DNA of 64,000 nt from Marinomonas pontica (GTDB lineage Bacteria > Pseudomonadota > Gammaproteobacteria > Pseudomonadales > Marinomonadaceae), in NCBI RefSeq assembly GCF_026191375.1, contig NZ_JAODTL010000048.1, forward strand, positions 1 through 64,000, read 5' to 3'. The notes under the pieces were generated by a model. It was not told where the DNA came from, ran no database searches, and was given only the letters and a program-made list of their open reading frames with translations. The position numbers and the translations under genes were made by a program. Shown here piece after piece: positions 62 through 25,007 of this stretch. The stretch's first letter is position 1. Each line of letters starts with the position of its first letter.

Positions 62-1648
62 TTACAAATAATCAGAGAGATGGAGCACAACCCCTTCAGC
101 CTTCATAGCCTTGTAACTGCCACTTTTACTGTTAACCATTAACCGCAGGTCGTTTTCAACATACCTAGGCTTTAGCTTAACGACTTTTGGCTTCTCTTTG
201 ACTGGGGGCACTGGCTCTTTATTCTGCAAGTTATTGATATGCGCAAGCAGCTGAAATAAGTTGGCGTCAGGAAGCTCTGACACAGCTTGCTCTGCCACAG
301 TGGGCGCAATGTCTTCACCGATACCCGCTTGCTCAAGCATATTGATCAGCTTAGATAGCTTGGTCTGCTCAGGGAAATCATGCTCATCCTCTCTATTAAG
401 CTCCGTATTTTCATTTACTGGAGCTGAAACCACTGCGTTCTGAACTATGCTTGCTTTTGGTATTTCTAGATCATCATACTTTTGTATTTCTGAATCACGG
501 CCACTTTGAAGCGCTTTGATCATGGGTTTGATCATATGAAGCTCTTCATTGAATACGGTTTCCACTAAGTCTCTGGAGATCACTTCTCTACCCACTGTCA
601 CAGCTCTTGTCTGACATAAGTAAAAAAGTGTTACCGCAACATGGGCAATGCCCTGAGAGTAGTCCCAGAAAAGCGTTTTAATCTCTTTCGTTAGGGGCTG
701 AGGTGACTTGAACCACTGTAAAGCCCACAACTGAGAGAAAAACCTATCCCAATCAGAGCCTTTACCGGATCTGTCTGTGGTATTGAATCGATTCCAATTG
801 ATACTGCCAAACTGTGAAGCACGTCTAGCCGAACGCATACTAGGAGAAAATAGCTCATAGGCTTTTGGCGTCCCGACAAACAGTATTGGTAGCTTAATCG
901 TGTTCGTTAGCTGCACAAAGAACCGAAGAATTCGATCAGACACATTCGTAGAGCTCGAACGCTCTAAATGCTGAATTTCATCAATAACTAGTAGGCCTAT
1001 TGAGTGCAAAGCGGCAATTCTCGCAAAATCCCCCAGCAACATTTCAGCATTTGCTCGTGGTTTTACGTATTGCTTTTCATATAGTCCGTTGTTGTCTAAT
1101 GCCTCGTCTAGAGCACGAAAGAAGTTGATGCATAGACTTTTTACAGAGGCGTCATGAGGACACTCTACTTTAAGCCAGACAATCTGAACATGTTGGTAAG
1201 AGGAATGCATAATGACTTGAGGATAGCCAGACAAGACGGCTTCAACGGCTGTTGATTTACCAGCACCCGAACAGCCAATAACAGAGCTTACTAATGCTTC
1301 ATTTCCAGCATTACGGCTGTCATCTGCTAGCTTCTCTGTTCGATTCAATGTTTCTTGATAGCTTTTATTGGCTATGTTTCGACTCAAATAGCCTTGACGA
1401 ATCATAGTAGAGATCGTTTGCTCTAACTGTAGATGCGCTTTTGTTGGGTATAAAAAACCATCCATAATTCGCAACATGGCATGTCGACGGATATGAGCAG
1501 GAAGAGCCACCTCTTCAGGACTTACAACCGGAATACGTCGTATCAATTCCGCTGTGTCTTTTGGCGAATTAATCGGTGGCAGTGCATTGATTAATGGGTG
1601 ATCTTCGTATTCTTTGATCTCTGCATCTATGTATTCTCGCTGTTTCAA
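62..1648 (-). CDS. tnsC: Tn7-like transposition regulator ATPase TnsC
   Basis: A 528-residue AAA+ ATPase that in Tn7-type elements links the target selector (TnsD/TniQ) to the TnsA/TnsB transposase and provides target immunity. The Walker A motif GCSGAGKST is at residues 125-133 and the Walker B motif LLVIDE at about 219-224. It is close to the length of Tn7 TnsC (about 555 residues). The C-terminal tail from about residue 400 is rich in charged residues and proline and is probably flexible, in the region that contacts partner proteins in Tn7. The gene follows tnsB by 21 bp in the same direction. The family call is firm from motifs and context; activity cannot be judged. Confidence 0.93.
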   Translation of the reverse strand: MKQREYIDAEIKEYEDHPLINALPPINSPKDTAELIRRIPVVSPEEVALPAHIRRHAMLRIMDGFLYPTKAHLQLEQTISTMIRQGYLSRNIANKSYQETLNRTEKLADDSRNAGNEALVSSVIGCSGAGKSTAVEAVLSGYPQVIMHSSYQHVQIVWLKVECPHDASVKSLCINFFRALDEALDNNGLYEKQYVKPRANAEMLLGDFARIAALHSIGLLVIDEIQHLERSSSTNVSDRILRFFVQLTNTIKLPILFVGTPKAYELFSPSMRSARRASQFGSINWNRFNTTDRSGKGSDWDRFFSQLWALQWFKSPQPLTKEIKTLFWDYSQGIAHVAVTLFYLCQTRAVTVGREVISRDLVETVFNEELHMIKPMIKALQSGRDSEIQKYDDLEIPKASIVQNAVVSAPVNENTELNREDEHDFPEQTKLSKLINMLEQAGIGEDIAPTVAEQAVSELPDANLFQLLAHINNLQNKEPVPPVKEKPKVVKLKPRYVENDLRLMVNSKSGSYKAMKAEGVVLHLSDYL

Positions 1649-1669
1649 ATACGGCCATGTGATTATCCC

Positions 1670-3730
1670 TTAAAAATCATCCAAATCTGGGTAGTCGAAC
1701 CCCTGTTCAACTTGTTTACCGGAATGGATAGAAGTAACTGTCGCTGCCTCCTTCTTCTTAGGCGATTTAGCGGACTCTCTATTTTTCTGGCGTTCTGACT
1801 TTTTTTCTTGCTCTCGATTGTTACGAATTCCACTTAGTCGCTGCGAGTTGTTAGATAGATCCGAAGACTTTTGTCTCTTTTCTGCAACTTGGGCAATCAT
1901 CTCAAGCTCATTTTGAAGATCTGGTGCTTGATAATCGGCTTCTTGTTGAGCTTCAGAATATGTTGATCTCGATTCAGATTGAATTGACATTGCTTCAACT
2001 AAGCTCATGTCTTGATATCTACGACTTCGACTCTGCAATGTGCATTCCCATACACTATCAAACTTATTGTCTGGTCTCACATATAGAACATTGGTGTTCA
2101 GAGGATCGTAAGCTACCTCTAAGCTTTTTGGACGAGGCACTGATCTATTTTTATGAAACCAGCCAAGTTCAACTGCTTCTGCACAGGTATAATACATGCC
2201 CTTAAAACATATGCCTGAAGGAGATATCGTAGCTTTGCTATGGGGCAACATGTTCACATAGGTGAATTTTGGATCTACTTCCCTCAAAACACCCGTTCTA
2301 TTTTTAACGCCCCAATGCCATAGCCTTACAGGTATCGCAGCCAAATCTGCGGGCATATCAGATTCAAAGTCGTAGCCCTCTAATGGAATGGATGTATTGC
2401 GGTTGATTTCAGAGATGATCACCATTTTTGTGAAATCATAAAGCGTTAGGTTCGCTGATAGCTCTGTTCGTTTCCCCGCTTTTTTCTTTCCATTTACAGG
2501 TTCGACCTTCCCTTTCACATAAGGAAGAATATCTACATGCATCATATGAAATGATTTTTCGACTATGCCTTTATCATCACCGCGATATGCTCGGGTATTC
2601 GATAAAGTGATGCCAAATCGGTTAACTAAGATATCTCCGTGTTTGCCAAGCAACTCTCCTCGGTCAGCTGTAATCGTTGCAGGGGTCCCAATACTTGGCC
2701 AATCACTTTCAGTAATCTCAATACCGAATCTACGGCAGTACTCAACTTTGTCACAGAACGCGTGCGCGAGGGCGATCGATGCGGTTGCCCAAGAAGGATT
2801 TTCTAACCCAACATACAAGCCAACAGTCATACGACTAAACACATCTTTGACTTTATATACGATTGGGCGGCCTACGATCCGATCTGGGTCATGGCCTGAA
2901 ACAAGGTGCAAGTCCGCTATGGTCGCATCGATTTCATAACGAGCCCCTGGTCCAAAGTTATTTGTGGTAGAAGTGCTGTGGCTAGGTGTAACATCTTTTG
3001 CATATTGAATAGATGGAGTGCGAGCTTGCACAACAAGAGGCTTTGCATAGTTTTTGTTGTAGAAGTATCGGAACTGCCTATAAGTGGGTAAATCTTCTTT
3101 TTTCACCTTAGGGTACTTTGACTTAATAAAGCCATTCGCCTTTGTCCTAGCCCCTTTTAGGTCTACATCATTATTAACTAAATAGAAGCCTTCAATAGCC
3201 AACTTGAAAAGACTTGCTATCTCATCAGTAATAGCAAGTCCCTCTCCATGGGATACTGTGCGTTTACTCCCTGTTTTTTGAATTGCTAGTCGGTTTTGTC
3301 CAGGAGCACCGCATTTTGTGTAGTCTGGAGCAAGGGAGTCAGGAGAAAGTCCTCTCTGCCAATATCGACGCAATTGTCGAGTCACATACAGCCTAGACTC
3401 ATCCGTTGCTTCTAAAACTGACTTAATCTTCTGATTCCTCAGCTTTTTATCAAATAAGGCAAAATAGTCCGTTAACAATAAAGCTACGGATCGATAAGCC
3501 CGATCTCTTATCTCTTCCGCTTTAGAGCCTGCTTCGGGGGTGGCCAACAAAATTGGATCTGGCACGGCTTCTAGTGACAAACTTTCGAACTCATCTAGAT
3601 TTACGCGATATGGCCACGCTTTTTCATCGTGTATATCGATAAGCATTAAGAAATCGACATGTTCATAAACAATTCGGACATGGGTTGGATGGTCCAAGTG
3701 AGGGTCAAGAAATACTTTATTAAGATACAT
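1670..3730 (-). CDS. tnsB: Tn7-like DDE transposase TnsB
   Basis: A 686-residue transposase of the retroviral-integrase (rve) fold that binds the transposon ends, cuts the 3' strands and joins them to target DNA. The DDE triad is visible as D268 (YEIDAT), D356 (ITADRG) and E391 (GIVEKS). The spacings of 88 and 35 residues equal those I recall for Tn7 TnsB (D273, D361, E396). An N-terminal helical DNA-binding region precedes the catalytic core, and a basic low-complexity tail follows. Its start overlaps the end of tnsA by 11 bp, which suggests translational coupling. All three catalytic residues are present, so the protein looks competent. Confidence 0.95.
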   Translation of the reverse strand: MYLNKVFLDPHLDHPTHVRIVYEHVDFLMLIDIHDEKAWPYRVNLDEFESLSLEAVPDPILLATPEAGSKAEEIRDRAYRSVALLLTDYFALFDKKLRNQKIKSVLEATDESRLYVTRQLRRYWQRGLSPDSLAPDYTKCGAPGQNRLAIQKTGSKRTVSHGEGLAITDEIASLFKLAIEGFYLVNNDVDLKGARTKANGFIKSKYPKVKKEDLPTYRQFRYFYNKNYAKPLVVQARTPSIQYAKDVTPSHSTSTTNNFGPGARYEIDATIADLHLVSGHDPDRIVGRPIVYKVKDVFSRMTVGLYVGLENPSWATASIALAHAFCDKVEYCRRFGIEITESDWPSIGTPATITADRGELLGKHGDILVNRFGITLSNTRAYRGDDKGIVEKSFHMMHVDILPYVKGKVEPVNGKKKAGKRTELSANLTLYDFTKMVIISEINRNTSIPLEGYDFESDMPADLAAIPVRLWHWGVKNRTGVLREVDPKFTYVNMLPHSKATISPSGICFKGMYYTCAEAVELGWFHKNRSVPRPKSLEVAYDPLNTNVLYVRPDNKFDSVWECTLQSRSRRYQDMSLVEAMSIQSESRSTYSEAQQEADYQAPDLQNELEMIAQVAEKRQKSSDLSNNSQRLSGIRNNREQEKKSERQKNRESAKSPKKKEAATVTSIHSGKQVEQGFDYPDLDDF

Positions 3731-4538
3731 CAGACAATCCAGCTTTACATGAATCTAGGCCTAGAACGATAGACACATCCGTTGCACGCCAATTCCTAAA
3801 TACAATATCTAAAGGAACATCAATCAAATTTGCAGCAGCAGCATTACGAATCACACCAATATGAAAGCCTGCACTGCAATCGTATAGGTCATCCATAGCA
3901 GCACAAACTGTAGCAAGCTTCTTCTCAGAGCCTGATAACCGGTTAATCACTGTCGAAATATCTTCTAAAGACAACTCTTCGTATAGGTCATGGGAATTCT
4001 GGCTGGCTGCATGAAGCCATTCAAGATTCTCTTTTACGACCGCTGGAATCTCTTGGTCTGTGAAAAGTTTCCATTCATAACCAAGCTCTTCCCAATACAG
4101 CTTTTCGATTTGAAGTTTGTCTACCGTACGCACATTGTCTAAATCGCTGGCGTATTTAACAGCAATAGCAATAGATGGCTTGCCTTTCAGCTCCACAACT
4201 AAGTCTGTGGTAACGACTTTCAATTTGTTGCGTATTTGGGGGTGCTTAATTCCCAAACGAGAACAAATACTCAAGGTATCAGCTACAGGTAGAGGAAATT
4301 GCTCTTTGATGTCGTAGGTAAGATGGAAGCGATCAAAGACAAGGAAAGCAGAAAATTCAAGACGAGATAAAAGATGATGAGCTCTAGAGGTGTTTCGACC
4401 TCGGATGCGATAGCTCTCACCAGTACTACTTATTTCGTGGACTTTTATAAAGGGCTCGTAGTCTTCCCCTGAACCAATCCCTCTGGTTTTTAACTTCTTC
4501 TCATCTTGAAGATCAACTAGTTTCTCAGAATCTAACAT
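3720..4538 (-). CDS. tnsA: Tn7-like endonuclease subunit TnsA
   Basis: A 272-residue restriction-enzyme-like nuclease that cuts the 5' strands at the transposon ends, giving cut-and-paste rather than cointegrate transposition together with TnsB. The N-terminal nuclease domain aligns by eye with Tn7 TnsA through HHLLSRLE, FPLP, IKHP and TTDL. Catalytic E61, D112 and K128 are present, but the residue matching Tn7 Q130 is A126 (AIAVK instead of AIQVK). The C-terminal TnsC-binding domain is complete. ATG at 4538 has a GAGG about 8 bases upstream. It is the gene nearest glmS, as in Tn7, and its promoter lies within the transposon end. Confidence 0.93.
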   Translation of the reverse strand: MLDSEKLVDLQDEKKLKTRGIGSGEDYEPFIKVHEISSTGESYRIRGRNTSRAHHLLSRLEFSAFLVFDRFHLTYDIKEQFPLPVADTLSICSRLGIKHPQIRNKLKVVTTDLVVELKGKPSIAIAVKYASDLDNVRTVDKLQIEKLYWEELGYEWKLFTDQEIPAVVKENLEWLHAASQNSHDLYEELSLEDISTVINRLSGSEKKLATVCAAMDDLYDCSAGFHIGVIRNAAAANLIDVPLDIVFRNWRATDVSIVLGLDSCKAGLSDVS

Positions 4539-4563
4539 TTTTAGGCCTCATGCTTACTCTTTG

Positions 4564-4593
4564 AGCATAGCAGAAGGCCTAAAAAAATATCAA
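4564..4593 (-). promoter_or_regulatory. Predicted sigma-70 promoter of tnsABC inside the transposon end
   Basis: On the minus strand a TTGATA -35 (4593-4588) is followed after 18 bp by a TATGCT -10 (4569-4564), about 26 bp before the tnsA ATG. The -35 falls in the innermost of three repeated transposase-site candidates, so TnsB bound at the end would be expected to repress its own operon. That regulation is inferred from the overlap. Confidence 0.5.
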
Positions 4594-4644
4594 ACATTAT
4601 TGTAAAATATCAAACTATAATGTCTTTTATCAAACTATAATGTC
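4588..4644 (-). repeat. Three phased repeats, probable TnsB binding sites of the right end
   Basis: TATCAAAC followed by an ATAATGT-like tail occurs three times on the plus strand, starting at 4588, 4608 and 4628. The two outer copies are identical over 17 bp (TATCAAACTATAATGTC), and the inner one is diverged. The strict 20-bp spacing is about two helical turns, so all copies face the same side of the DNA. Tn7 ends carry several 22-bp TnsB sites in the same place, which is the basis for the call. Confidence 0.8.
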
Positions 4645-4655
4645 ACCGTACAACA
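4588..4655 (-). mobile_element. Right terminus of a Tn7-like transposon at attTn7
   Basis: The element end is placed at 4655, where the minus strand begins TGTTGTACGG; TGT at the terminus is the rule for Tn7-like elements. The glmS stop codon (4679-4677) is 21 bp further on, matching the fixed distance at which Tn7 inserts beyond glmS. If the end is right, the 5-bp target duplication would be CAATC at 4656-4660. The left end and the cargo lie outside the window, so the duplication cannot be checked. An end at 4657 is a possible alternative. Confidence 0.75.
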
Positions 4656-4676
4656 CAATCTCGTTTCCTAATCTCG

Positions 4677-6544: not shown

Positions 6545-7906
6545 TTACTTTTTAATTGGCCTAGGCCAATTATCTTTGTTTGTTTGACGCGCTCTGGCAA
6601 AAGCCAATTGCTTCTCACCAACCCGTTTGGTGATGGTCGAGCCTGCGGCAATCGTTGCGCCTTCTGCCACTTGAACAGGGGCAACTAATGAGGTGTTAGA
6701 GCCGATAAACACATTATCGGCCACTTGTGTCTTATGTTTATTAACGCCGTCGTAGTTGCAGGTAATGGTACCCGCCCCAACATTCACATTGGCGCCCATT
6801 TCGGTGTCTCCAATGTAACTCAGGTGATTCACTTTACTGCCTTCTCCAATGAGCGCTTTTTTGGTCTCTACAAAGTTACCAATTTTGGCGTTATTCGCTA
6901 AAACCGTTCCAGGACGCAGACGCGCAAAAGGGCCGATATCACAGGCATCACCGACTTCACTTTCGTCAATCATGGTGTTGCTTTTAATGATGGTATTGTC
7001 GCCGATAAGACAGTTTTTAAGATGACAGTTCGGTCCAATTTCAACCCCATTACCCAACACCACATTGCCTTCAAACACGCAGTTGACGTCAATGATCACG
7101 TCTTGCCCCGTGGTCAATTCGCCACGGATATCAATGCGAGCAGGGTCGAACAGTGTCGCGCCGTTTTGCATCAAAGTAATGGCTTGTTGGTGCTGTAACT
7201 CACGCTCCAGTGCCGCCAATTGAATACGGTCGTTCACACCAGCCACTTCGGCTTCGTTTTCAGGATGAACCGTGACAATGTCCACACCATCTCGCGCTGC
7301 CATGGCAATCACATCGGTAAGGTAATATTCGCCTTGAGCATTGTTGTTTGTTAATGCTGCTAACCAGCCTTGCAGGTGAGAGTTGGGTGCTAACAGAATG
7401 CCGGTATTGACTTCTTTAATTGCCAGCTGACTGTCGGTCGCATCTTTTTGCTCCACTATGGCCACGACTTTGTTTTGTTCATCACGCACAATGCGGCCGT
7501 AACCCGTTGGGTTATCGAGAGAAATGGTCAATAGCACTAGAGTATTCGGTGTGGATAAAGCCGTCATTTTTTCAAGCGTGCTGGCACGAATGAGTGGTAC
7601 GTCGCCATACAAGGTCAAGGTCGCGCCGTTGTCCTGCAAATAAGGCGCGACTCGACGCAGCGCGTCTCCCGTGCCTTGTGGGTCATTTTGCCAAACAACA
7701 TTGGCCATAAAATCCTGACAGCTGGCTTCCACCTGATCACCCTGATGGCCCACGACCAGATGTAATTTTGCGTTCGGTAGCGCGCTGGCGGTAGTCAGTA
7801 CACGTCGAACCATGGCGCTGCCGCCGACCTTGTGCAAAACCTTAGAAAAAGCAGATTTCATTCGGCTGCCCTTTCCGGCAGCAAGAATTACAATATCCTG
7901 AGTCAT
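6545..7906 (-). CDS. glmU: Bifunctional UDP-GlcNAc pyrophosphorylase / GlcN-1-P acetyltransferase GlmU
   Basis: GlmU acetylates glucosamine-1-phosphate and then couples it to UTP, giving UDP-GlcNAc. The N-terminal nucleotidyltransferase domain carries the signature LAAGKGSRMKS (residues 7-17) and YGDVPL. From about residue 250 a left-handed beta-helix of hexapeptide repeats forms the acetyltransferase trimer, with the conserved NFVETK and GAGTITCNYDG stretches. Length (453) is normal. It is the first gene of a two-gene operon with glmS. In many relatives atpC lies upstream; here the upstream neighbour is a LysR gene, so the ATP synthase operon is not adjacent. Confidence 0.97.
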   Translation of the reverse strand: MTQDIVILAAGKGSRMKSAFSKVLHKVGGSAMVRRVLTTASALPNAKLHLVVGHQGDQVEASCQDFMANVVWQNDPQGTGDALRRVAPYLQDNGATLTLYGDVPLIRASTLEKMTALSTPNTLVLLTISLDNPTGYGRIVRDEQNKVVAIVEQKDATDSQLAIKEVNTGILLAPNSHLQGWLAALTNNNAQGEYYLTDVIAMAARDGVDIVTVHPENEAEVAGVNDRIQLAALERELQHQQAITLMQNGATLFDPARIDIRGELTTGQDVIIDVNCVFEGNVVLGNGVEIGPNCHLKNCLIGDNTIIKSNTMIDESEVGDACDIGPFARLRPGTVLANNAKIGNFVETKKALIGEGSKVNHLSYIGDTEMGANVNVGAGTITCNYDGVNKHKTQVADNVFIGSNTSLVAPVQVAEGATIAAGSTITKRVGEKQLAFARARQTNKDNWPRPIKK

Positions 7907-8175
7907 GAAGCGTCCTTGTATTGGCGTCTTTAAATAATAGATACATTAAGAATGGAGCCATTAGACCTTTTTGCCAAAAACGCCACAACCCAAATTGTCA
8001 AAAATAAAATGACAATTTTTAAAAAATAAAGCCGAATCTGATTTTTCATGGCGTCTACGCGCCTTACGCTTAAAGATTGTCAGAAAGAATCGGCACAATA
8101 TTAGACATTACGGACACCTAACATGGTGCAACAATCTCCCGACTAAATACGTTGTTCTAACCCTATTTTTGAACA

Positions 8176-9094
8176 TCAGACAATGCGCAAGCTGCCCCTT
8201 CGCGGGCAGGCGTTGCACTCAGCCTGAAGCAGTTCCACTAATAAGCGAGTAGCAGGGCCGGTTCGCTCCCCTTTGCCAAAAATAGCGTACATATGGAAGT
8301 TACGCTCGCTGCCTGAAATCAGTTTCAATTTTTTCAGTTTGCCACTTTGTAAGGCGTATTCTAAATCGGCTTTTGGCAACCACGCGAAGCCGATACCACT
8401 GGTCACCATTTCAAGCGCGGACTGCACGCTCGATACCGTCCAGCGACGATCTGTTCCCAACCAACCCGCATCTACTGAGGTTTCCGACGCCGAATCGCGA
8501 ATCACGATCTGCAGTTCTCGACTCAAGCGTTCATTATTAATCGGGGGCCGTCTCGCTGTGCAACACATGGCTGCTTGCCGCCACGGCGATCATTTCCACT
8601 TCTACTATAGGGTCCGCAAGGTAACCTTTTGGTACCATGCCACTGAGCACCAAATCGGGACTGCCTTTTCGCAAGGCCTCTTCGCCACCACTTAATACCG
8701 CTTCTTTTAGCTGCACCTGTGTGCCTTGGCTTTGTGGTTCAAATGCCTGCAACGCTCGCAGCAAAGCAGGCGTAGGAAAGGCCTGATCGACGACTAATTC
8801 CAACTCTGGCTCCCAGCCTTGGCCTAGCGTATGAGCTAACTCTTCAAGGTCTACCGCTTCTTTTATCAAATGACGTGATCGGCGTAACAGTACTTCGCCA
8901 CGTTCGGTCAATTTGGCTTTTCGCCCCTCAATGATTAATAAAGGATAACCAAGCTGTTCTTGCAGTTTCGCAACGGTATAACTCACCGAAGACTGACTTT
9001 TATGAAGGGCTTCCGCCGCTTGGGCAAAACCGCCCTTGTCGACAACCGATTGCAGTACTCGCCATTGCTCTAACGTTACTCTTGGGGCTTTCAC
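8176..9094 (-). pseudogene. LysR-type regulator interrupted by a +1 frameshift
   Basis: A LysR regulator with its winged helix-turn-helix at the N-terminus (FAQAAEALHKSQSSVSYTVAKL) and a substrate-binding domain split over two frames. The first part ends VLHSETAPD-stop and the second continues INNERLSRELQIV. Removing one C from the run of five (plus-strand G run 8543-8547) joins them as TAPINNERL, a full-length protein of about 305 residues. A GTG start at 9094 with AGAGAAG just upstream fits family length better than the upstream TTG at 9157. It is divergent from azoR with a LysR box between them, so it probably regulates azoR. The break may be a sequencing error. Confidence 0.8.
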
Positions 9095-9130
9095 AGTTCT
9101 TCTCTTAGGTTGGGGGTATGAAAATAATTT

Positions 9131-9145
9131 ATCGTATTTTTCGAT
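9131..9145. promoter_or_regulatory. LysR-type operator candidate (ATC-N9-GAT)
   Basis: The perfect dyad TATCG-N7-CGATA lies between the divergent LysR gene and azoR and fits the ATC-N9-GAT half of a classical LysR recognition site. A second TATCGA half-site follows at about 9173-9178, where an activation site would be expected. Assignment to this regulator is inferred from position. Confidence 0.45.
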
Positions 9146-9260
9146 ATATATCTCCAAAAAATGTCACTTTTTTATCGAATATATAGGTTATATGATGGCT
9201 TCATTAATCAAGAAACGGGGTCGACCTGATCCTAAATACCTTATTACGGAGAATGTAAAC

Positions 9261-9854
9261 ATGGCAACTTTATTGCGTATCGACTCTAGTGCTTCTGGCG
9301 AAAACTCAAAATCACGTCAATTGGCAAACGAATTTATTCAACAATGGTTAGCAAAAAACCCAGACGGCAAGGTTGTTGTTCGTGATGTAGATGCAAACCC
9401 ATTGCCTCACTTTACCAGCGAAACATTGGGTGCATTGTTCACTCCTGAAGAAAACCGTACTGCTGAGCAAAATGCCATTGTGGCGATTGGTGATGAATTG
9501 ATTAGCGAAATCGAGGCCGCTGATGTCGTTACTATTTCTGCGCCAATGTACAACTTCGGTATTCCATCTACTTTGAAGTCTTACTTTGATTACATTGCGC
9601 GTGCTGGCCGTACTTTTAAATACACAGAAACGGGCCCTGTTGGCTTGCTAAACAAAGACGCTTACGTGTTTGTTGCAAGCGGTAGCTTCTTGGCAGAAAC
9701 ACCAATGGATCACCAAGTACCTTACCTAAATACGTTCCTAGGTTTTGTTGGTGTGACAGTGAAAGAAACCTTCATTGCAGGCGGCCAAGCATTGGGCGAG
9801 CCAGGTGAAGAATCTTTCAACCAAGCTAAAGCGAAAATCGCTTCTGCAGCGTAA
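9261..9854 (+). CDS. azoR: FMN-dependent NADH azoreductase AzoR
   Basis: A flavodoxin-fold FMN protein of 197 residues that reduces azo compounds and quinones with NADH; its likely physiological role is detoxification of quinones and thiol-reactive compounds. The N-terminal phosphate-binding segment RIDSSASGENSKSRQLANEF and the PMYNFGIPSTLKSYFDY motif are diagnostic. The open frame extends upstream to 9036, but ATG 9261 has GGAGA at 9248-9252 and gives the family N-terminus, so it is taken as the start. A bidirectional terminator follows at 9878-9915. The upstream divergent LysR gene is its likely regulator. Confidence 0.93.
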   Translation: MATLLRIDSSASGENSKSRQLANEFIQQWLAKNPDGKVVVRDVDANPLPHFTSETLGALFTPEENRTAEQNAIVAIGDELISEIEAADVVTISAPMYNFGIPSTLKSYFDYIARAGRTFKYTETGPVGLLNKDAYVFVASGSFLAETPMDHQVPYLNTFLGFVGVTVKETFIAGGQALGEPGEESFNQAKAKIASAA

Positions 9855-9877
9855 TGTAATAGCCCAACGCGCTATCT

Positions 9878-9915
9878 AAAAAAACCGATTAGCCGGCTGG
9901 TTAATCGGTTTTTTT
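9878..9915. terminator. Bidirectional terminator between azoR and tex
   Basis: A 14-bp stem (AAAAAAACCGATTA pairing with TAATCGGTTTTTTT) around a short loop, with T runs in both directions. It serves the convergent azoR and tex genes. Confidence 0.88.
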
Positions 9916-9947
9916 GTTTGCGCGCCTAACAAAACACTCAATGAATG

Positions 9948-12109
9948 TTATAAGCCATTGGCTTTCAACGCGATTCGTTTGCGCTGTACATCGACTTCCA
10001 ACACAGTGACATTCACCACTTGTCCCACTCGCACCAAATCTCTAGGGTCTTTCACGAATCGATTGGCTAGCTGAGAAATATGAATCAGCCCATCTTGATG
10101 AACACCAATGTCAACAAACGCGCCAAACGCCGCCACGTTAGTAACGACGCCTTCTAAGGTCATCCCCTCGTGGACATCATCGAGTGTTTGTACCGTCTGA
10201 TCAAAAACCGCATAGCGAAATTCAGGACGAGGATCTCGACCCGGCTTTGCTAATTCCGTCAAAATATCTGAGTAGGTAAAATCATCCACCTGAGCCATGC
10301 TCGGCGCCATGTTTTTAAGCTGTTGTAAAGCGTGGCTGTTGTTTAAAAGCTGATGCGCTTTAAGCGACAGACGCTCTGCCATTTGCTGCACCAAGGGATA
10401 CGACTCAGGATGCACGCCAGACTGATCCAGTGCCTCTTTACCGTTTAGAATTCTTAGAAAACCGGCGCATTGTTCAAAACATTTCTCTCCAATGCCTTTT
10501 ATCTTCAACAACTCTGCCCGAGATTCAATACGGCCTTTTTGTTGACGATATTCAACGATATTTTGTGCAAGACGCTGTGTTAAACCAGACACATAGGACA
10601 ACAAAGACACCGACGCCAAGTTGATATCAACACCAACACGGTTCACACAGTCTTCCACCACATTCCCCAGCGACTTGGAAAGCAGAGACACTTTCACATC
10701 ATGCTGATATTGGCCCACGCCAATCGCCTGTGGGTCGATTTTTACCAACTCCGCAAGTGGGTCTTGAAAGCGTCGAGCAATAGACACCGCACCACGAATG
10801 GTGACATCCAAATCGGGGAACTCTTGTATCGCAATCGGTGAGGCAGAATAAACAGACGCCCCCGCTTCACTGACCACCACCGCACGACAATCAAGCTGCT
10901 GTTGTGTTATTAGTGCATTAATAAGCGCTTCGGTTTCCCGTGAGGCCGTGCCATTACCAACGGCCAACCAAGCAATGCGATGCCGATTAATAAGGGACAG
11001 CAAAGTAGCTTCGGCTTCTTGTGTGCGATTTTGAGGTCCATGAGGGTAAATAACCCCGTGATCTAATACACTGCCTTGTTCATCAATCACAGCCAGTTTT
11101 ACGCCATTACGAAAACCTGGATCAACGCCTAATACACGAAACGCCCCTGCTGGTGCCGACATTAATAAGTCGTGTAAATTATCCGCAAAAACCTGTATCG
11201 CCCCTTCTTCGGCTCGGTCTTTCAGCTGAGTTAAAACATCGGTTTCTAATTTAGGCAGCAGTTTCTTATCCCAAGCAAGGTTTAAATAACGTCGCTGTAC
11301 AGACGTTACACGATTCGATTCCGGTTGTGTTCCATCAAACAGTTGATTCAATTGAGGAAAGAGTAAAGTGTCCGGGTAAGAAGCCGAGTATTTCAATGCA
11401 ACACTCAGCTTTAATATGGATTCTTTTTTCCTCTAAATAACGCCAGCAATCTATGCGCTGGCACTTTATTTATATCTTCTTGGTAATCAAAGTAATCTCG
11501 AAATTTCTCGCCTAATTCTTTTTTGCCTCTTAATACGCGACTGATGATACGTCCATTTTTCAGCAATTCTGCTCGACCTTGCTTTAGTACGTCACTGTCA
11601 TTAGCAATGGTTTCGCTTACTATCTCTACCACCCCTTCTAGAGCCTGTTCAGGCGTGACTTTGCTGTTCGTTTGCTTGCACCATGCGGAAACAGCCGACA
11701 CGCTGTCCGAACGATCGCCAGACCAGATTAGCGCGGCCAGCGGTTGCAGACCTTGCTCTCTTGCTTCATCGGCTTTTGTTTTGCGCGCTTTTTTAAAAGG
11801 GGCGTATAGATCTTCTAATTCATTTTTAGAGGTGGCGTTCTGTATTTTCTTTCGAATAATATCGGTTACCGCTGGCTCGTCAGCTAATAATGAGAGGATG
11901 CTTTCTTTGCGTTTACCTAATTCCACTAGGTATTGCCATCTATCATAAAATGAACGCAGATCCATGTCGCTCATACCGCCCGTACTCTCTTTTCTATATC
12001 GAGCAATGAATGGCACCGTGGCACCTTCTTCAAATAATTGAATGATGTTGTTACTGTGTTTTTTTAATATAGAAAACTCTGTACTTAGGTTATCTGCTAT
12101 AGAACTCAT
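9948..12109 (-). pseudogene. tex: Transcription accessory protein Tex, two frames joined at a slippery heptamer
   Basis: Tex is an RNA-binding transcription accessory factor with an N-terminal helical region, a YqgF-like RNase H fold (VLGVDPGFRNG), helix-hairpin-helix repeats (IKGIGEKCFEQ) and a C-terminal S1 domain (GVVTNVAAFGAFVDIG). The first frame (12109 to 11411) ends FRGKKNPY-stop and the second resumes ESILKLSVAL, the normal continuation. The junction is GGA AAA AAG (plus-strand T run 11424-11429), where a -1 slip on A-AAA-AAG restores the Tex sequence exactly. Missing one A from a run of seven would look the same. Joined length is about 720 residues, slightly below typical Tex. The lesion may be sequencing error, mutation or programmed frameshifting. 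Confidence 0.85.
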
Positions 12110-12463
12110 GTATTACCCTATTGTTTACACTTTTCTAACAGTCCAACTACGTTATTTTATTAGCATGTTAGGATGTTTTTTATTAAAATCCGCACACAAA
12201 CTTGAAATAGTATAAAATCACACCACAATGTATTGATAGCAATTCAATTATTATGCAGAGAAAGCAAAGTATATTGATTTGATCAAATATATGACAAGCC
12301 CACTTCTCAATGGATTTTAATAAATTACCAGAGAAGATAGAAAACCTTTTCTAAGGAAATCGTTTTTAATGGCTTATTTTAACACCACTGAGTGTAAAAG
12401 ATGGATCTCTTTTCAGTGCAGGACCATACCAACCAGTTCTTAACAGATTAATAGGGGACACCA
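12110..12463. promoter_or_regulatory. AT-rich divergent intergenic region between tex and the hns-like gene
   Basis: These 354 bp hold no gene I can support. They are visibly more AT-rich than their surroundings and must carry the promoters for tex (leftward) and the hns-like gene (rightward). A perfect 12-bp palindrome ATTTGATCAAAT lies at 12277-12288, inside the motif TTGAT-N3-ATCAA, one base short of an FNR/CRP-type spacing. AT-rich bent DNA ahead of H-NS genes commonly serves autoregulation; that is an inference here. AGGGGAC precedes the ATG at 12464. Confidence 0.5.
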
Positions 12464-12862
12464 ATGAGTTTATTAGTTGAATTAGCAGGCAATAAAGCAA
12501 AAGCACGTGCAGCAGGTAAAGAGCTAAGCGTTGCACAGCTTGAAAACCTAATTGCTGGCTTCACCAATGCACTTGAAAAAGCGAAGGAAGAAGAAGCTGC
12601 ACGCGAAGCGGAACAAGCGCTTAAATCGGCCCGCGCAGAAGAAATCGCCAACCTAATTGCAAAAAGCGGCCTAACAATGGAAGAAATTGCGCTGTTAACC
12701 ACACCAAAAGCTGGCGCGACAAAAGGCAAAACAGTAGAGCCTAAATACCGCCTAGTGGTAGAGGGTGAAACACATGAGTGGACTGGCCGTGGCCGCACAC
12801 CAAAAGTATTCCAAGAATACTTTGATGCTGGTAACAGCCGTGACAGCGTTGAAATCAAATAA
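12464..12862 (+). CDS. H-NS family nucleoid protein
   Basis: A 132-residue protein with an N-terminal coiled-coil oligomerisation region rich in Ala, Glu and Lys (residues about 10-75) and a C-terminal H-NS DNA-binding domain. The hallmark is YRLVVEGETHEWTGRGRTPKVF, with TGRGR as the AT-hook-like minor-groove motif. H-NS family proteins silence AT-rich and foreign DNA and organise the nucleoid. Length and architecture are typical. AGGGGAC sits at good spacing upstream of the ATG. A perfect palindromic terminator follows. The protein differs enough from E. coli H-NS that I do not give it a specific symbol. Confidence 0.92.
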   Translation: MSLLVELAGNKAKARAAGKELSVAQLENLIAGFTNALEKAKEEEAAREAEQALKSARAEEIANLIAKSGLTMEEIALLTTPKAGATKGKTVEPKYRLVVEGETHEWTGRGRTPKVFQEYFDAGNSRDSVEIK

Positions 12863-12885
12863 GACTTTGATGTCAGTGTCGAACA

Positions 12886-12925
12886 GATAATAAAAAAGCG
12901 ACTCATGAGTCGCTTTTTTATTATC
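12886..12925. terminator. Bidirectional terminator between the hns-like gene and trmB
   Basis: A 40-bp perfect palindrome centred on AGCGACTCATGAGTCGCT, with A/T runs on both sides (GATAATAAAAAA on the left, TTTTTTATTATC on the right). It ends both convergent transcripts. Confidence 0.92.
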
Positions 12926-12944
12926 TTAAAATCCGCACTTGTCG

Positions 12945-13655
12945 TTAGATTTTGTGCGTATAAATCAGATCCCAAACACCGTGCCCCAAACGCTCGCCAC
13001 GTTGTTCAAATTTGGTCAGCGGTCGCCATTCAGGTCGAGGATGATACAACCCTTTACCCGCGGCATTTTCATACCCTGCTTGAACTTCCATTACTTCCAT
13101 CATGTGCTCTGCGTATGGCTGCCAATCTGTCGCCATATGGAAATGTCCGCCGTCTTTTAAAACATTAGCCACTTGTTGAGCAAACAAAGGCTGAACGATA
13201 CGGCGTTTGTTGTGCTTTTTCTTGTGCCAAGGATCAGGGAAAAATAATTGAAATGCACTGGCGGCTTTTTGCGGTAAGCAATTTGCCATGACTTCAATCG
13301 CGTCATCACAATAAACTCGCAAATTGGTTACGCCCTGTTCGGTCGCCAACATCATCAATTTAGCCACGCCAGGGGGATGAACTTCGATTCCAATAAAGTC
13401 TTTCTCTGGGGCATTTTTCGCCATTTCAACCAGTGATGCGCCCATACCAAACCCAACTTCCAGCACAACGTCCGCTTCACGGCCAAATACCGTGGCGTAG
13501 TCGATACGTCCATCGGCCAGATCTAAACCGTAGATTTCCCAGTTTGCGTCGTAGTTTTTTTGTTGGCCTTCGGTCATGCGACCTCCTCGTACCACAAAAC
13601 TGCGAATGGTACGTTTTTTAATAGGCTCTTGTGTTTCTGTTTTTTGATCTTGCAT
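12945..13655 (-). CDS. trmB: tRNA (guanine-N7)-methyltransferase TrmB
   Basis: Methylates G46 in the variable loop of tRNAs with S-adenosylmethionine. The 236 residues include the N-terminal [11 protein letters not shown], the SAM-binding motif [23 protein letters not shown], and the catalytic region [14 protein letters not shown] that defines the family. Length is normal. It converges on the hns-like gene with a shared terminator. In relatives trmB often sits beside yggX and mutY, and these are about 4 kb away here. Start ATG at 13655 was kept, although an internal start closer to the conserved region cannot be excluded. Confidence 0.96.
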
Positions 13656-13819
13656 GATTGTGTGTCGCTTAGCGTAAATATGTTCTATTTGTGTGTGCTT
13701 ACCATTCCATATTGGAAGAATAAAACACGCATTATCAATTTGGTCGCCATACTACCCGAAAAAGCCAATTATGTCCTGCTTTGAACTCAGTTCTAAAAAT
13801 GAACAAAATAGTGCCTTTA

Positions 13820-14200
13820 TTACGTTGAAGCGCGCCACAAACGTAACGCCAATAACCCCCATGCCATCAAATAGCACAATCCACCTAATGGCGTAACAGC
13901 ACCCAAAAAGGTCAGGCCACTTAATGCCATGAGATACAAGCTACCAGCGAATAACAGATTTCCCACTGAAAACAGCAGCAAAATACGCGGAGCCTTAAGT
14001 GCCAAAGACGACATAGACACCGCCAACCCAGCAAGCGAATGGTACATAAGATATTGGCTCGCAGTCTGCCACCAGCCTAATGCTTTTAGGTCAAGAATCG
14101 TGGTTAAAGCATGCGCACCAAATGCACCCGCGGCCACAGAAAGAGCTGCTTGTATTGCAAATAGTGCTGCCCATTTTGATAAGGATGACGTCGTAATCAT
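13820..14200 (-). CDS. DUF423 (YgdD-type) inner-membrane protein
   Basis: A small integral membrane protein of about 126 residues with four predicted hydrophobic helices. The family signature GAFGAHAL lies near the first helix, with WWQTASQYLMYHSLAGLA after it and GAVTPLGGLCYLMAW near the end. Function of the DUF423 family is not established. The frame extends upstream to a TTG at 14221, but ATG 14200 gives the usual family length. It is transcribed in the same direction as the WD40-like lipoprotein gene upstream, with about 57 bp between them, so the two may share a transcript. Confidence 0.88.
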   Translation of the reverse strand: MITTSSLSKWAALFAIQAALSVAAGAFGAHALTTILDLKALGWWQTASQYLMYHSLAGLAVSMSSLALKAPRILLLFSVGNLLFAGSLYLMALSGLTFLGAVTPLGGLCYLMAWGLLALRLWRAST

Positions 14201-14257
14201 AAAAAAGTCACTGTAGGACAATGGATGTGTTGATAAGGTCTTATCTGAACAGATAAT

Positions 14258-15241
14258 TTATTCTAGGACGTTAAAGTACCCATTACTGCCAATGGCATAA
14301 TAACGATTGCCGGGGCCATACGCCAAAGCAAGCACCACGGAGCCGGTTAGACGGCTTTTCTGCTGCATAATGTCCCACTCTTTCTGAACAATGCCAGTAC
14401 TCACCTGAGCCAAGGTCACACGACCGGTAACTTCCCCCATCAAAATGGTTCGGTCATCTTTTGCAAACACCGCCTGACTGATCGTTACATTACGGTATTG
14501 CAATGCTCCGGTGTCTATCTTTGTCAGTTCTTTGCCCGTTCTTGTTGACCAAATTTTTGCATTTCCTAATTGCGCGGCGCCAAACGCGTATTTACCGTCT
14601 GCCGATAACGCCACACTGGCGATGGCATTATTTAAGGGCCATTCGTATTTTTTCTCGCCCGTTTGCATGTCCCACAAAATCACTTTAGACAAATCGTCGC
14701 CGGTGATTCCCAGCATGCCATCCGGTGTGACATCAACGGCTCGCACAGTCGCCCCCGTTCTTAGGGTCTGTTTTATGCCGCCACGTTTGATATCAAAATA
14801 GCGTGCGGTTTGATCATTCAAACCAATCAAGGCGTAATCGCCATTTTGCGTTAATTTAAGCGATTGAATATCGCCTGGTGTATTCCAAAAACCGTCCGGC
14901 TTTCCGGTGACGGTATTCCACAACACCAATGTGCGTGCACCGCCCGTTGCGGCAAATTGACCAGTTGGGTCAATGTCTACGCCCAACAAAGAGGAATACT
15001 CCCCTTGGGCATGGTTCCAATTATAACGACGCTCATTTACCGCGTTTACCCAGTAACTGCCACCGTGTTCAATAGAACCAATCAAAGCGGTCGAGCCATC
15101 ATCGCTCAACACCGCCGAATACAAACCTTGCACAGCGTATTTCGCCGTTCGAACTGGCGCCTCTGCCGAGCAAGACAATAACGCCGCGCAGCAGAAAACC
15201 ATAACCCCCAATTCAAGCGTCTTTTTCGCTGTGCGCTTCAT
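14258..15241 (-). CDS. Lipoprotein with WD40-like beta-propeller repeats
   Basis: A 327-residue exported protein. A short basic N-terminus and hydrophobic stretch lead to the lipobox LLSC with C24 as the lipidation site, so the mature protein is probably membrane-anchored. The rest shows about six loose WD40/PQQ-type repeats with recurring GAT/ILWDMQTGE and VLWNTVTGKPD blades. Such propellers usually act as protein-binding scaffolds; the ligand is unknown here. The start overlaps the end of the rsd-like gene by 29 bp, so the two are probably translationally coupled. I know no named homologue. Confidence 0.8.
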   Translation of the reverse strand: MKRTAKKTLELGVMVFCCAALLSCSAEAPVRTAKYAVQGLYSAVLSDDGSTALIGSIEHGGSYWVNAVNERRYNWNHAQGEYSSLLGVDIDPTGQFAATGGARTLVLWNTVTGKPDGFWNTPGDIQSLKLTQNGDYALIGLNDQTARYFDIKRGGIKQTLRTGATVRAVDVTPDGMLGITGDDLSKVILWDMQTGEKKYEWPLNNAIASVALSADGKYAFGAAQLGNAKIWSTRTGKELTKIDTGALQYRNVTISQAVFAKDDRTILMGEVTGRVTLAQVSTGIVQKEWDIMQQKSRLTGSVVLALAYGPGNRYYAIGSNGYFNVLE

Positions 15242-15683
15242 GTAATTCCTTAATTAATTGGTCTTCGAATTGAAACCGTTCAGCCATAACGAGCGTTAAG
15301 GCCTGCAAAGAAAATGGCAAAGCCTCTAATTGCGCATTGCAATGTTCTTTGGTGTCGTATTTGTCGTTAAACTCAATCGCCACTTCCGTCGAACTGTCTA
15401 TCTGCGGCAAAAGTTCGCGTAACAATACCAAGGCACCGTCATCATGAAATTCTTTGGCTTCCAACGCCAATTGTTCGTAAACTGTAAAATGACCCGCAGA
15501 CACATAGTCCACCAGCATTTCGCATACCGCTTGTATTTTAGGTGTGTCCGTCGGTGTAAATTCACCTCGCTCACGCAAATACATCCAGTTCTCAATCAAT
15601 TGTCGACGCTGCTCTAACCAACGATCAATAATGATGTGTACTCCGCCCCATCGCTCTTGGGCTGTTTTACAACCTTCTAACAT
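15213..15683 (-). CDS. rsd: Anti-sigma-70 factor Rsd / AlgQ family
   Basis: A 156-residue all-helical protein of the Rsd/AlgQ family, which binds region 4 of sigma-70 and frees core polymerase for alternative sigma factors in stationary phase. Visible family features are AQERWGGVHIIIDRWLEQRRQLI near the N-terminus, VDYVSAGHF and FNDKYD. Length fits Rsd and AlgQ (about 158-160). In Pseudomonas algQ neighbours a dsbB homologue, and a dsbB gene lies 106 bp upstream here in the same direction. It overlaps the lipoprotein gene downstream. Confidence 0.93.
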   Translation of the reverse strand: MLEGCKTAQERWGGVHIIIDRWLEQRRQLIENWMYLRERGEFTPTDTPKIQAVCEMLVDYVSAGHFTVYEQLALEAKEFHDDGALVLLRELLPQIDSSTEVAIEFNDKYDTKEHCNAQLEALPFSLQALTLVMAERFQFEDQLIKELHEAHSEKDA

Positions 15684-15789
15684 ATGCAGACTCCATCAGG
15701 CGTTCATTATTATTACTGTCTTACCTCAAGCATATTCCGATACGTTACCCCCTGCAAGACGATAGTCAGGGGGTATTTGTAACCTTTTA

Positions 15790-16296
15790 TTAGCGAAAGG
15801 TGTTTTTACCCGCTCGCACAGCGATCACGATATTAATGATGGCCATGCCGACAAATGCCACCAAAGTCCAGCCAGGAATGCTGATACCAAAGAGTGTCCA
15901 CACCACATCTCCGCACTCTCCGGTACCCATCACCATCGCCTGCATAATTTCTTGCCACGGGAAGACTTCAAACATGTAGCTTAGTCCCGGCAAGCACGCA
16001 GGTAGCTGCTCCGCCGGCAAATTTTGTAAATACAGATGGCGAATCGCCAGCGCCGCACCCGCAAAAGACAACACCACGACCAGCCAAGAACAGCTTTTTC
16101 GAACGGTGGCATTGGCCGTCAATGCAGAACCCAAAGACACCACCCCCACGCAAAAGAAAACAATGCGCTGCAACATACACAATGGGCAAGGCTCTAGCCC
16201 CATTTGGTATTCCATATAAAAAGCCACGGCTAAAAGAGCAAACGCGGCAAACGCAACCAAACCATGAAAACGACGAGCAGACAAAAACGCAAACAT
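15790..16296 (-). CDS. dsbB: Disulfide bond formation protein DsbB
   Basis: An inner-membrane quinone reductase that reoxidises DsbA and passes electrons to ubiquinone. The 168 residues form four transmembrane helices. The first periplasmic loop carries the redox pair CPLC in GLEPCPLCMLQR (about residues 37-40), and the second loop carries C in LPACLPGL and GECGDVVW. Length is typical. It is upstream of rsd in the same direction. A dsbA gene lies separately at 27829, so both halves of the pathway are in this window. Confidence 0.95.
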   Translation of the reverse strand: MFAFLSARRFHGLVAFAAFALLAVAFYMEYQMGLEPCPLCMLQRIVFFCVGVVSLGSALTANATVRKSCSWLVVVLSFAGAALAIRHLYLQNLPAEQLPACLPGLSYMFEVFPWQEIMQAMVMGTGECGDVVWTLFGISIPGWTLVAFVGMAIINIVIAVRAGKNTFR

Positions 16297-16444
16297 AAAC
16301 GAAGGTTCCTAAGCTGACTAAAGTGATAATTTAAAAATATGAGTTTATGACAATAAGAAGACCAGAAAGTGCGAAATTCCTACTGACAGAACGCTTTAAT
16401 GGCAGTTAGTATACTGTCTATTGGAACGAATACGAGAATCTACC

Positions 16445-16870
16445 ATGTCATTGATGATGTCCTTGAGCAATAAAATGCGAATCCTTGCTCTGAGCTGTGC
16501 TTTTTGCGCAACCAGCCTGAATGTCTACGCGGCAGAAGAAGGCGAAGCGCCCGTTCCGACCTATATCGAGTTAAAACCCAACTTTGTCGTAAACCATGTG
16601 GGGGATGAAACACGACTTAAATACATAAAGACCAGCATTAGCATCCGCACCGACATGAGCAAAAAAGAACTGATCGAAGCCAATATGCCCTTGGTCAGAG
16701 ACGCACTCGTCATGTTTCTCAGCTCACGCACCACAGAACAAGTCACAGGCGCCATCGCCAGAGAGAAAACTCGCGAAGAAGCGGCTGTTGCCGTCAATTC
16801 CGCATTAAAAGAAGAAACCGGCGCAGAACCAGTGAAAGACATTTTATTTGCCAGCTTTGTGACACAGTAA
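16445..16870 (+). CDS. FliL-like periplasmic protein with signal peptide
   Basis: A protein of about 141 residues whose body resembles the periplasmic domain of flagellar stator-associated FliL (YIELKPNFVVN, KYIKTSISIRT, IREALVMFLSS-like stretch). Unlike FliL, it starts with a cleavable signal peptide ending near NVYAAEE instead of a membrane anchor. No flagellar genes are nearby. Similar FliL-like proteins occur beside dsbB/algQ in Pseudomonas relatives. ATG 16445 is preferred over the in-frame start at 16421 because it gives a compact signal peptide. Function is unassigned; a role in a stator- or stomatin-like complex is speculation. Confidence 0.8.
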   Translation: MSLMMSLSNKMRILALSCAFCATSLNVYAAEEGEAPVPTYIELKPNFVVNHVGDETRLKYIKTSISIRTDMSKKELIEANMPLVRDALVMFLSSRTTEQVTGAIAREKTREEAAVAVNSALKEETGAEPVKDILFASFVTQ

Positions 16871-16902
16871 ACACTCATTTACATACTCATTTGCTCAAAC
16901 AC

Positions 16903-16937
16903 AAAAAAAGCCCCTTGACTACCAAGAGGCTTTTTTT
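16903..16937. terminator. Bidirectional terminator between the fliL-like gene and yggX
   Basis: AAAAAAAGCCCCTTG pairs with CAAGAGGCTTTTTTT with one mismatch, giving a stem with A/T runs on both flanks between convergent genes. Confidence 0.88.
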
Positions 16938-16965
16938 ATGAAAAATGACTCGCCCTAAAATCAAC

Positions 16966-17250
16966 TTACAACTCTTTGATGTCATCAGGATCGACGTAAC
17001 CAGACAATTTGTCTGTGGCTTCGTTATTGAAAAACTTCTCCATTTGCTCCATTACATATTTACGAGAGTCAGGCTGCATCAGGTTCAATTGCTTTTCGTT
17101 GATCATCATTGTTTGCAGTAACTGCCATTCTTGCCAAGCTTGTTTAGACACTGACTGTAGAATTTCTTGGCCTTTTGCTCCCGGTAACGGCGCGCGGTCT
17201 AACGCCTCCATGTCTTTCTGAAACTTTTTGCAAAATACTGTATTCGCCAT
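16966..17250 (-). CDS. yggX: Probable Fe(II)-trafficking protein YggX
   Basis: A 94-residue cytosolic protein linked to iron-sulfur cluster protection under oxidative stress. The N-terminus MANTVFCKKFQKDMEALDRAPLPG carries the conserved C7, and KQAWQEWQLLQTMMINE is the family core. In most gammaproteobacteria yggX directly follows mutY. Here a chromate transporter and about 570 bp of palindromic repeats separate them, so yggX may no longer be co-transcribed with mutY. Confidence 0.95.
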   Translation of the reverse strand: MANTVFCKKFQKDMEALDRAPLPGAKGQEILQSVSKQAWQEWQLLQTMMINEKQLNLMQPDSRKYVMEQMEKFFNNEATDKLSGYVDPDDIKEL

Positions 17251-17908
17251 AGGAATCTCTCGCCATCATAAAGTAATAGAGTGAATAATGGCGTTAACAC
17301 GTCAGAATTCAAGGCATTATAGAAATAAGATAAGAAACGCGATCCACTTAGCTCCTCCCCCTTGAAGATAAGGGGAAGGAACAAAAAAACGTACTTAGCC
17401 CCTCCCCTGCTAAGGGGGAGGCTGGGAGGGGTTAATAAAGCTAACAACCCCATCCTAACCTTCCCCTTGAAGATAAGGGGAAGGAACAAAAATGCTTAGC
17501 CCCTCCCGCTGCTAAGGGGGAGGCTGGGAGGGGGTTAAAAAGCTAACAACCCCATCTTAACCTTCCCCTTGAAGATAAGGGGGAGGCTGGGAGGGGGTCA
17601 ACAAAGCTAACAACCCCATCCTAACCTTCCCTGGAAGATAAGGGAAGGAACAAAAATACTTAGCCCCTCCCCCTGCCAAGGGGGAGGCTGAGAGGGGTTA
17701 ACAAAGCTAACAACCCCATCCTAACCTTCCCCTTGAAGATAAGGGGAAGGAACAAAAATGCTTAGCCCCTCCCCCACTAAGGGGAGGCTGGGAGGGGGTC
17801 AATAAAGCTAACAACCCCATCCTAACCTTCCCCTTGAAGATAAGGGGAAGGAACAAAAATGCTTAGCCCCTCCCCCTGCTAAGAGGGAGGCTGGGAGGGG
17901 GTCAGTTT
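17251..17908. repeat. Tandem array of palindromic repeats (REP/BIME-like), about 101-bp period
   Basis: Between yggX and chrA there is no gene; from about 17345 to 17903 the DNA is an array of two alternating hairpins. Hairpin A is CCTTCCCCTTGAAGATAAGG with its complement, and hairpin B is built on CCCCTCCCCCTGCTAAGGGG followed by GAGGCTGGGAGGGG; a linker AAAGCTAACAACCCCATCCT joins them. Full A hairpins start at 17459, 17561 (hybrid), 17625, 17725 and 17826, giving spacings of 102, 64, 100 and 101 bp. The GGAG/GGGAGG bases beside the stem are like those of REP elements moved by RAYT transposases. No RAYT gene is in the window. Confidence 0.9.
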
Positions 17909-20166: not shown

Positions 20167-20202
20167 GTATTTCTCACATTTACGCCGTTTTATCCGTATG
20201 GG

Positions 20203-23476: not shown

Positions 23477-23518
23477 GACTCTCTTAGTTTGAGCGATAAG
23501 AGTATGAGCAATAAGAGT

Positions 23519-24181: not shown

Positions 24182-24206
24182 CAGCAATCGATATTAGGAG
24201 CCGTAA

Positions 24207-24980: not shown

Positions 24981-25007
24981 CGCATTCAGAAATGGCATCA
25001 AAAAATT

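Follow-up and report, generated by a model that had tools for sequence, protein, structure and literature searches.

We analyzed a 64-kb window, bases 1–64000 of contig NZ_JAODTL010000048.1 (C48) from the draft genome of Marinomonas pontica (GCF_026191375.1; 3.55 Mb, 62 contigs). Our results suggest, with a probability of roughly 0.8, that positions 62–4652 of the window are the right part of a cut-and-paste transposon of the Tn7 family that targets glmS in Marinomonas or a very close genome, and that a second contig, C6, holds its left end. A preliminary description of the window had proposed a Tn7-like element at glmS, in a TnsD-type position, with its right end facing glmS and only its right part in view. 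The proteins, the ends, and the position bore this out, and the contig starts 61 bp past tnsC. Comparisons were made within a genus sample of 48 genomes, M. pontica included, in which relatives are coded (G001–G046 etc.).

TnsA, TnsB, and TnsC are nearest to those of Tn7

TnsA, TnsB, and TnsC of the window are homologous to those of Tn7, and the solved protein nearest to each is Tn7's own: 7pik for TnsB (E = 1.4e-130), 1f1z for TnsA (E = 3e-45), and 8glu for TnsC (E = 4e-89). An NCBIfam search gave no match for any of the three. TnsB has the motifs RYEIDAT (from 264), TADRGEL (from 354), and KGIVE (from 387), TnsC has a Walker A motif (GCSGAGKST at 125) and a Walker B motif (LLVIDEIQHL at 219), and TnsA carries E61, D112, and K128, in agreement with the earlier claim that the catalytic residues are mostly intact. 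By the Tn7 numbering and the 1f1z alignment, we take the three TnsA residues to be E63, D114, and K132 of Tn7. Where Tn7 has Q130, the window TnsA has an alanine. Across 13 other aligned TnsA proteins, this site is alanine in 11, serine in G016, and aspartate in the distant protein of G038; the K128 site is lysine in 11, asparagine in G016, and arginine in G038. Because alanine is common to most of the aligned proteins, the unusual residue is, by this alignment, a family trait.

The reading frame of tnsC shifts near codon 8 in comparison with two relatives, and the listed open reading frame (ORF) therefore opens at TTG; the relatives start at an ATG a few bases upstream, which is out of frame in M. 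pontica. We also noted an inverted repeat just upstream of tnsA (4540–4583; 15-nt arms, 87% complementary, 14 nt between them), which is possibly an operator.

The right end adjoins glmS

The consensus of the three right-end repeats, drawn from these same repeats, has only three matches in the window, compared to a mean of 0.03 in shuffles. The terminus had been placed at 4655, followed by a CAATC duplication. This placement is ruled out: we set the terminus 3 bp away, at 4652, and the duplication ACACA in place of CAATC at 4653–4657, because other copies end in ...GTACA directly before a 5-bp duplication. The duplication lies 20–24 bp past the glmS stop codon. Insertion ~20 bp past this stop, with the right end adjoining glmS, is characteristic of glmS-targeting Tn7-like elements, and PMC2918618 gives the same distance and a 5-bp duplication for Tn7. 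Furthermore, the ends are asymmetric, with close repeats on the right and, on C6, spaced repeats on the left, as PMC11406308 describes for Tn7.

C6 likely carries the left end

Own-genome searches cover the readable part of the assembly; some short contigs proved to be entirely N in an own-contig comparison that kept matches of >50% identity and >60 residues. In this readable part, the terminal 25-mer has four sites at ≤3 mismatches, one on C48 and three on C6. They represent a right end on C48 and, on C6, a left end plus a right–left pair. If the two contigs belong to a single element, all four ends are accounted for by a full-size element and a mini-element. Moreover, the 5-mer on C48, TGTGT as read from glmS, is the same as that past the C6 left end. 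Chance would produce this identity about once in 1000 cases, a figure for one 5-mer, because the mini-element itself accounts for the third TGTGT copy. Given the inferred union of C48 and C6, a 5-bp duplication stands at both ends, as in Tn7. The left-end stretch of C6 shows 78% alignment identity with the left end in G019. The left end that had been predicted, with matching termini, repeats, and duplication, was thus found on C6, though no contig connects C48 to C6.

Table 1. Positions of features of the M. pontica element and its flanks on contigs C48 (the window) and C6.
Feature	Contig	Position	Strand	Remarks
tnsC, AAA+ regulator	C48	62–1648	-	528 aa as listed from TTG; Pfam AAA_22 and TniB
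tnsB, DDE transposase	C48	1670–3730	-	686 aa, catalytic motifs present; Pfam Mu-transpos_C
tnsA, endonuclease subunit	C48	3720–4538	-	272 aa, 11-bp overlap with tnsB; Pfam TnsA N and C domains
Three repeats of the right end, putative TnsB sites	C48	4588–4603, 4608–4623, 4628–4643	+	Exact 20-bp spacing
Terminal 25 bp of right end	C48	4628–4652	+	At ≤3 mismatches, also three places on C6
Target-site duplication ACACA (TGTGT as read from glmS)	C48	4653–4657		5 bp
glmS, host gene, 3' end = attTn7	C48	4677–6503	-	Named from sequence knowledge and matches in relatives
NERD-domain ORF	C6	298–1224
Kinase-helicase ORF	C6	1221–5261
Third ORF	C6	5258–6694		478 aa
Spaced-repeat left end	C6	to 6894		Then TGTGT
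Mini-element	C6	6900–7082		183 bp, gene-free, one right-type and one left-type end; then TGTGT
luxR-family gene	C6	7060–8199	-	Listed stop inside mini-element

The likely layout would read, in order: glmS, TGTGT, right end, tnsABC, a middle that the readable assembly lacks and in which tnsD and perhaps tnsE are expected from relatives, the cargo genes mkoA and mkoB (mkoAB; see below), left end, TGTGT, the 183-bp element, TGTGT, and the luxR-family gene. If the proteins act as in Tn7, TnsD would bind the 3' end of glmS, TnsC would bridge, and TnsA and TnsB would cut and join, with the right end toward glmS.

Further along C6, a large, repeat-rich adhesin-like gene (in the stretch 12001–25880) has a near-identical inverted second copy on the same contig, which may be an assembly fold-back.

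Related copies occur at glmS in other species

A glmS match was found in 46 relatives; the stretch downstream of glmS was taken for 19 of these, and parts of Maribrevibacterium harenarium (G016) and M. piezotolerans (G024) were used as well. The end motif, at ≤3 mismatches, occurs in 11 of the 48 genomes (M. pontica included). The ends in M. alcarazii (G001) and G039 are more diverged and fall outside those 11, and their elements were found by protein. A tnsA match lies beside glmS in 8 of the 19 fetched relatives (G001, G013, G017, G019, G029, G038, G039, and G046), with an identity of 39% in G013 and 25% in G038; the other 11 have none within the part seen. The stretches included no close relative that combines an empty attTn7 with the flank of M. 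pontica. In addition, 14 related loci were found, of which 11 were compared and three from Paraburkholderia (L140–L142, ~30%) were left out. Location and orientation at glmS are common to 10 of the 11 compared loci, and the eleventh (L130) starts at the element's own end.

Perfect 5-bp duplications flank five of the eight relatives' copies for which both ends were found: AAGGT in M. hwangdonensis (G017), AGAAC in G019, AGAAA in G029, TGCCC in G039, and CTCCT at the glmS copy of G024, where the pairing of contigs is inferred. From the end positions, the elements measure 19.2 kb in G019, 22.8 kb in G017, 19.6 kb in G029, and 7.2 kb in G016. We also noted element ends at two flanks, one at glmS and one elsewhere, on six contigs of G024 (its C27, C7, C12, C13, C23, and C25; L114–L119), which suggests a second, non-glmS insertion in that genome.

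Over ~4.6 kb, the tnsABC DNA of M. pontica is 97.3% identical to that of G017 and 97.4% identical to that of G019, the match ending near the end of tnsC. By contrast, the glmS ends are only 81% (G017) and 79% (G019) identical; the former value comes from a separate glmS-end comparison, since blastn at default settings listed no match for the full glmS against M. hwangdonensis. Because tnsABC is so much more alike than glmS in the same genomes, the element has, on this comparison, moved recently between species. G039 shows 70% identity in TnsA and TnsB and 97% in TnsC, an apparent sign of recombination within the core. Beyond the genus, TnsB identity is 84% in Alteromonas hispanica and 63–70% in Shewanella, Amphritea, and Rheinheimera, each time beside glmS. 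Phage records that were searched gave no match, and a plasmid search by DNA returned eight records that match in part at 60–80% identity, each over less than 80% of the query.

Insertions are probably stacked at attTn7

Just past the left end, M. pontica has the 183-bp mini-element, G019 and G017 have a right end together with the start of a tnsA (38 and 27 residues, respectively), and G039 has fragments of another tnsA and tnsB. Such remnants were thus seen in four of the eight glmS copies with the left end in view, and none was seen in G029, the glmS copy of G024, G001, or G016. In G017 and G019, the left end, the duplication, and the older right-end remnant all stand in one contig at glmS. 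The simplest reading of this arrangement is that each new arrival goes in beside glmS, so that its predecessor ends up farther out. A later insertion would reuse the same site, and the earlier element, once pushed outside, would decay.

The core genes are split in most relatives with tnsD

We found tnsD in six relatives (G001, G016, G017, G019, G024, and G039). In five of them it starts ~5.7–13 kb past tnsC, with cargo between; in G016, only a 106-aa helix-turn-helix (HTH) gene separates tnsC from tnsD. The TnsD of G019 and G016 carries both TnsD and TniQ domains by Pfam. For tnsE, there is a Pfam match in G019 and homologues in G017, G024, and G039, and none was seen in G001 or G016. A contiguous tnsABCDE operon, the prototype layout, is absent from G001, G017, G019, G024, and G039; it is a trait of the prototype rather than of the whole family. 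We also noted that, in these same five genomes, a gene of helicase type with a small companion gene immediately precedes the HTH gene and tnsD (L105 12737–14637; homologues in L106, L116, L121, and L122).

Filtering of overlapping matches in the locus comparison masked tnsD beneath tnsE at four loci, for which tnsD was taken from a separate listing. In Amphritea (L134), tnsD starts ~7.8 kb past tnsC; in Alteromonas, both Shewanella, and M. alcarazii (L131–L133 and L135), no tnsD was seen in the 8.3–8.4 kb beyond tnsC. Nor is the split layout unique to the marine relatives, since the Citrobacter plasmid NZ_CP102501 carries a Tn7-like element in which cargo also separates the tnsABC-type genes (tnsB and tnsC by position and annotation) from tnsD. 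The split core does not hold throughout, however: in two Colwellia loci (TnsB 36–37%), tnsD directly follows tnsC, and the element in G038 is contiguous. We therefore put forward, as a proposal equally likely to hold or to fail, a marine glmS–Tn7 sublineage with a split core, tnsABC at the right and tnsD, sometimes with tnsE, past cargo toward the left. After tnsC, it would have an exchange zone that trades complete cassettes, of defense or other genes, while the transposase genes keep 97% identity between species; attTn7 would bear a stack with the newest element by glmS.

In M. pontica itself, searches of the readable genome with Pfam models PF15978 and PF06527, by DNA, and with the TnsD protein of a relative did not find tnsD. 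Weak TnsD matches below the cut-off on C12 (overlapping a trpR-like ORF, by eye) and C14 led nowhere, as did two weak TniQ matches below the cut-off; the TnsD profile search gave such sub-cut-off matches in 12 of 14 control genomes as well. The G019 stretch that contains tnsE had no counterpart by DNA in the M. pontica genome, and no profile search was made for tnsE.

The only TniQ match above the cut-off is on C9, and we rejected it as a part of the glmS element because it sits within a separate tnsABC set next to a comM-like gene. It belongs to a second, different Tn7-like element (C9 45000–60463, at 6891–13417 within that stretch; comM-like gene named by eye), whose proteins are TnsA, TnsB, TnsC, and TniQ, plus a TnsE_C match just below the Pfam cut-off.

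The cargo beside the left end resembles a Mokosh system

The earlier suggestion of defense-type cargo gained support from C6. The PADLOC MkoA model (1607 positions) aligns over positions 1–278 with the NERD-domain ORF and over 280–1603 with the neighboring kinase-helicase ORF (2.3e-113 and 0), and the 478-aa ORF matches MkoB (2.4e-141). Homologues of MkoA and MkoB thus stand side by side, with mkoA split, and the cargo adjoining the left end looks like a predicted Mokosh anti-phage system. We regard mkoA as split because its homologue on NZ_CP102501 is a single 1650-aa ORF. On the plasmid, this homologue is located past the tnsD of the element described above, which also bears TIR-domain and CBASS-type genes. 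Other homologues of the kinase-helicase ORF, at 84–93%, are on Vibrio and enterobacterial plasmids. In G017, further cargo occupies the stretch between tnsD/tnsE and the left end, and by analogy mkoAB would fit there in M. pontica. The cargo differs in the relatives, with type I restriction-type genes in G017 and other restriction-type genes in G019 (named by eye). Defense genes are enriched among the cargo of Tn7-like elements, according to PMC8649781.

Alternative explanations

Several observations weigh against the reading of the two contigs as a single glmS-targeting Tn7-family element. No contig bridges the two, and a DNA search for a contig overlapping the start of C6 gave only matches of ≤20 bases apart from C6 itself. 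A luxR gene lies downstream of glmS only in G038 among the 19 fetched relatives, that of G025 being on a separate contig; a DNA search for luxR matched 5 of 47 relatives, and the matches in G001, G018, and G029 are away from glmS. More diverged ends would escape a search at ≤3 mismatches, three of the eight relatives' copies lack a perfect duplication (G001, G016, and the second G024 copy, with 4/5 bases), and the failure to find tnsD counts on the same side. C6 might be a separate insertion elsewhere that shares TGTGT by chance, for which odds of ~1 in 1000 are not negligible; C48 would still hold a Tn7-like element at glmS. We consider this improbable, given the complete pairing of the four ends, the shared TGTGT, and the similar single-contig stacks at glmS in G017 and G019. 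The neighbors argue in the same direction: in G038, a Tn7-type element of another kind and then sugar-acid genes (by eye) follow glmS, and luxR and an adhesin gene, the outer neighbors on C6, come next, all within one 20-kb stretch. At glmS, G046 shows a right end plus part of a tnsA, and an adhesin-type match 2 kb further. With luxR beside glmS in so few relatives and no joining contig, the C48–C6 connection is likely rather than proven.

Within the reading of C48 and C6 as one glmS-targeting element, the M. pontica copy could be non-autonomous or decaying, having lost tnsD (and tnsE) and depending on a helper. The missing tnsD, the out-of-frame start of tnsC, and the split mkoA point this way, as does a copy in G029 with a shortened tnsB and no tnsD match in the compared stretch. 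Nevertheless, two chromosomal genes of the window are broken too: lysR-like (8176–9157) and tex-like (9948–12109) genes, named by eye, are split across at least two frames relative to two Marinomonas genomes, and account for the proteins spread over more than one frame (2 of 8 matching from M. alcarazii and 2 of 10 from M. hwangdonensis). This suggests indel errors in the assembly, and the breaks in mkoA and tnsC may likewise be sequence errors. Similarly, the middle of the element may simply be missing from the assembly, because the shortest of the 62 contigs is ~2.4 kb, so that anything below this length may have been discarded, and some contigs are N only. We therefore regard a non-autonomous copy as possible, at somewhat less than even odds. 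The earlier suggestion of a live element is weakened for this copy by the unfound tnsD and the tnsC start, although the family has clearly moved between species recently. Far less probable, to the point of being barely tenable, is an I-F3 CRISPR-associated transposon whose tniQ and cas genes would lie in the stretch out of view. The relatives do have tnsABC followed by cargo and not tnsD, as in I-F3 elements. However, TnsB matches that of Tn6677 at only 1.9e-11, compared to 1.4e-130 for Tn7, the TnsD of G019 and G016 has both the TnsD and TniQ domains, and some relatives have a TnsE-like protein. The cas search covered Csy3 in the readable M. pontica genome and found none; of its 14 control genomes, E. 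coli alone was positive, and the element's middle lies outside its reach.

tRNA and Rfam scans of the 64-kb window gave no matches.

Discussion

The M. pontica element is genuine and belongs to the ordinary glmS type of Tn7-like elements, with defense-type cargo; its kind is well known. It resembles Tn7 in its TnsABC proteins, in its insertion point and 5-bp duplication, and in its close right and spaced left repeats. Tn7 itself carries a resistance integron as cargo, unlike the anti-phage-type cargo of M. pontica. A further difference is the cargo between tnsC and tnsD in five of the six relatives with tnsD, whereas E. coli Tn7 relatives are described as having one full operon in PMC10293859. 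The elements of M. hwangdonensis and G019 share with it tnsABC, ends, and site, and differ in having restriction-type cargo (by eye) where M. pontica has mkoAB. Tn6022-type comM elements, to which the separate element on C9 is assigned, are likewise Tn7-like but have another target gene and another protein set. A literature search turned up no stacked Tn7-like insertions at glmS and no Mokosh system as Tn7 cargo, within a reach that excludes supplements and most subscription journals.

Understanding of Tn7 function is unchanged by this element. Specialists might note the split layout and the remnants stacked beyond the left end, and the relatives supply both ends, the target duplications, and signs of successive insertions. 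Collectively, one transposase set with differing cargo, defense-type in several copies, offers a clean natural example among marine bacteria.

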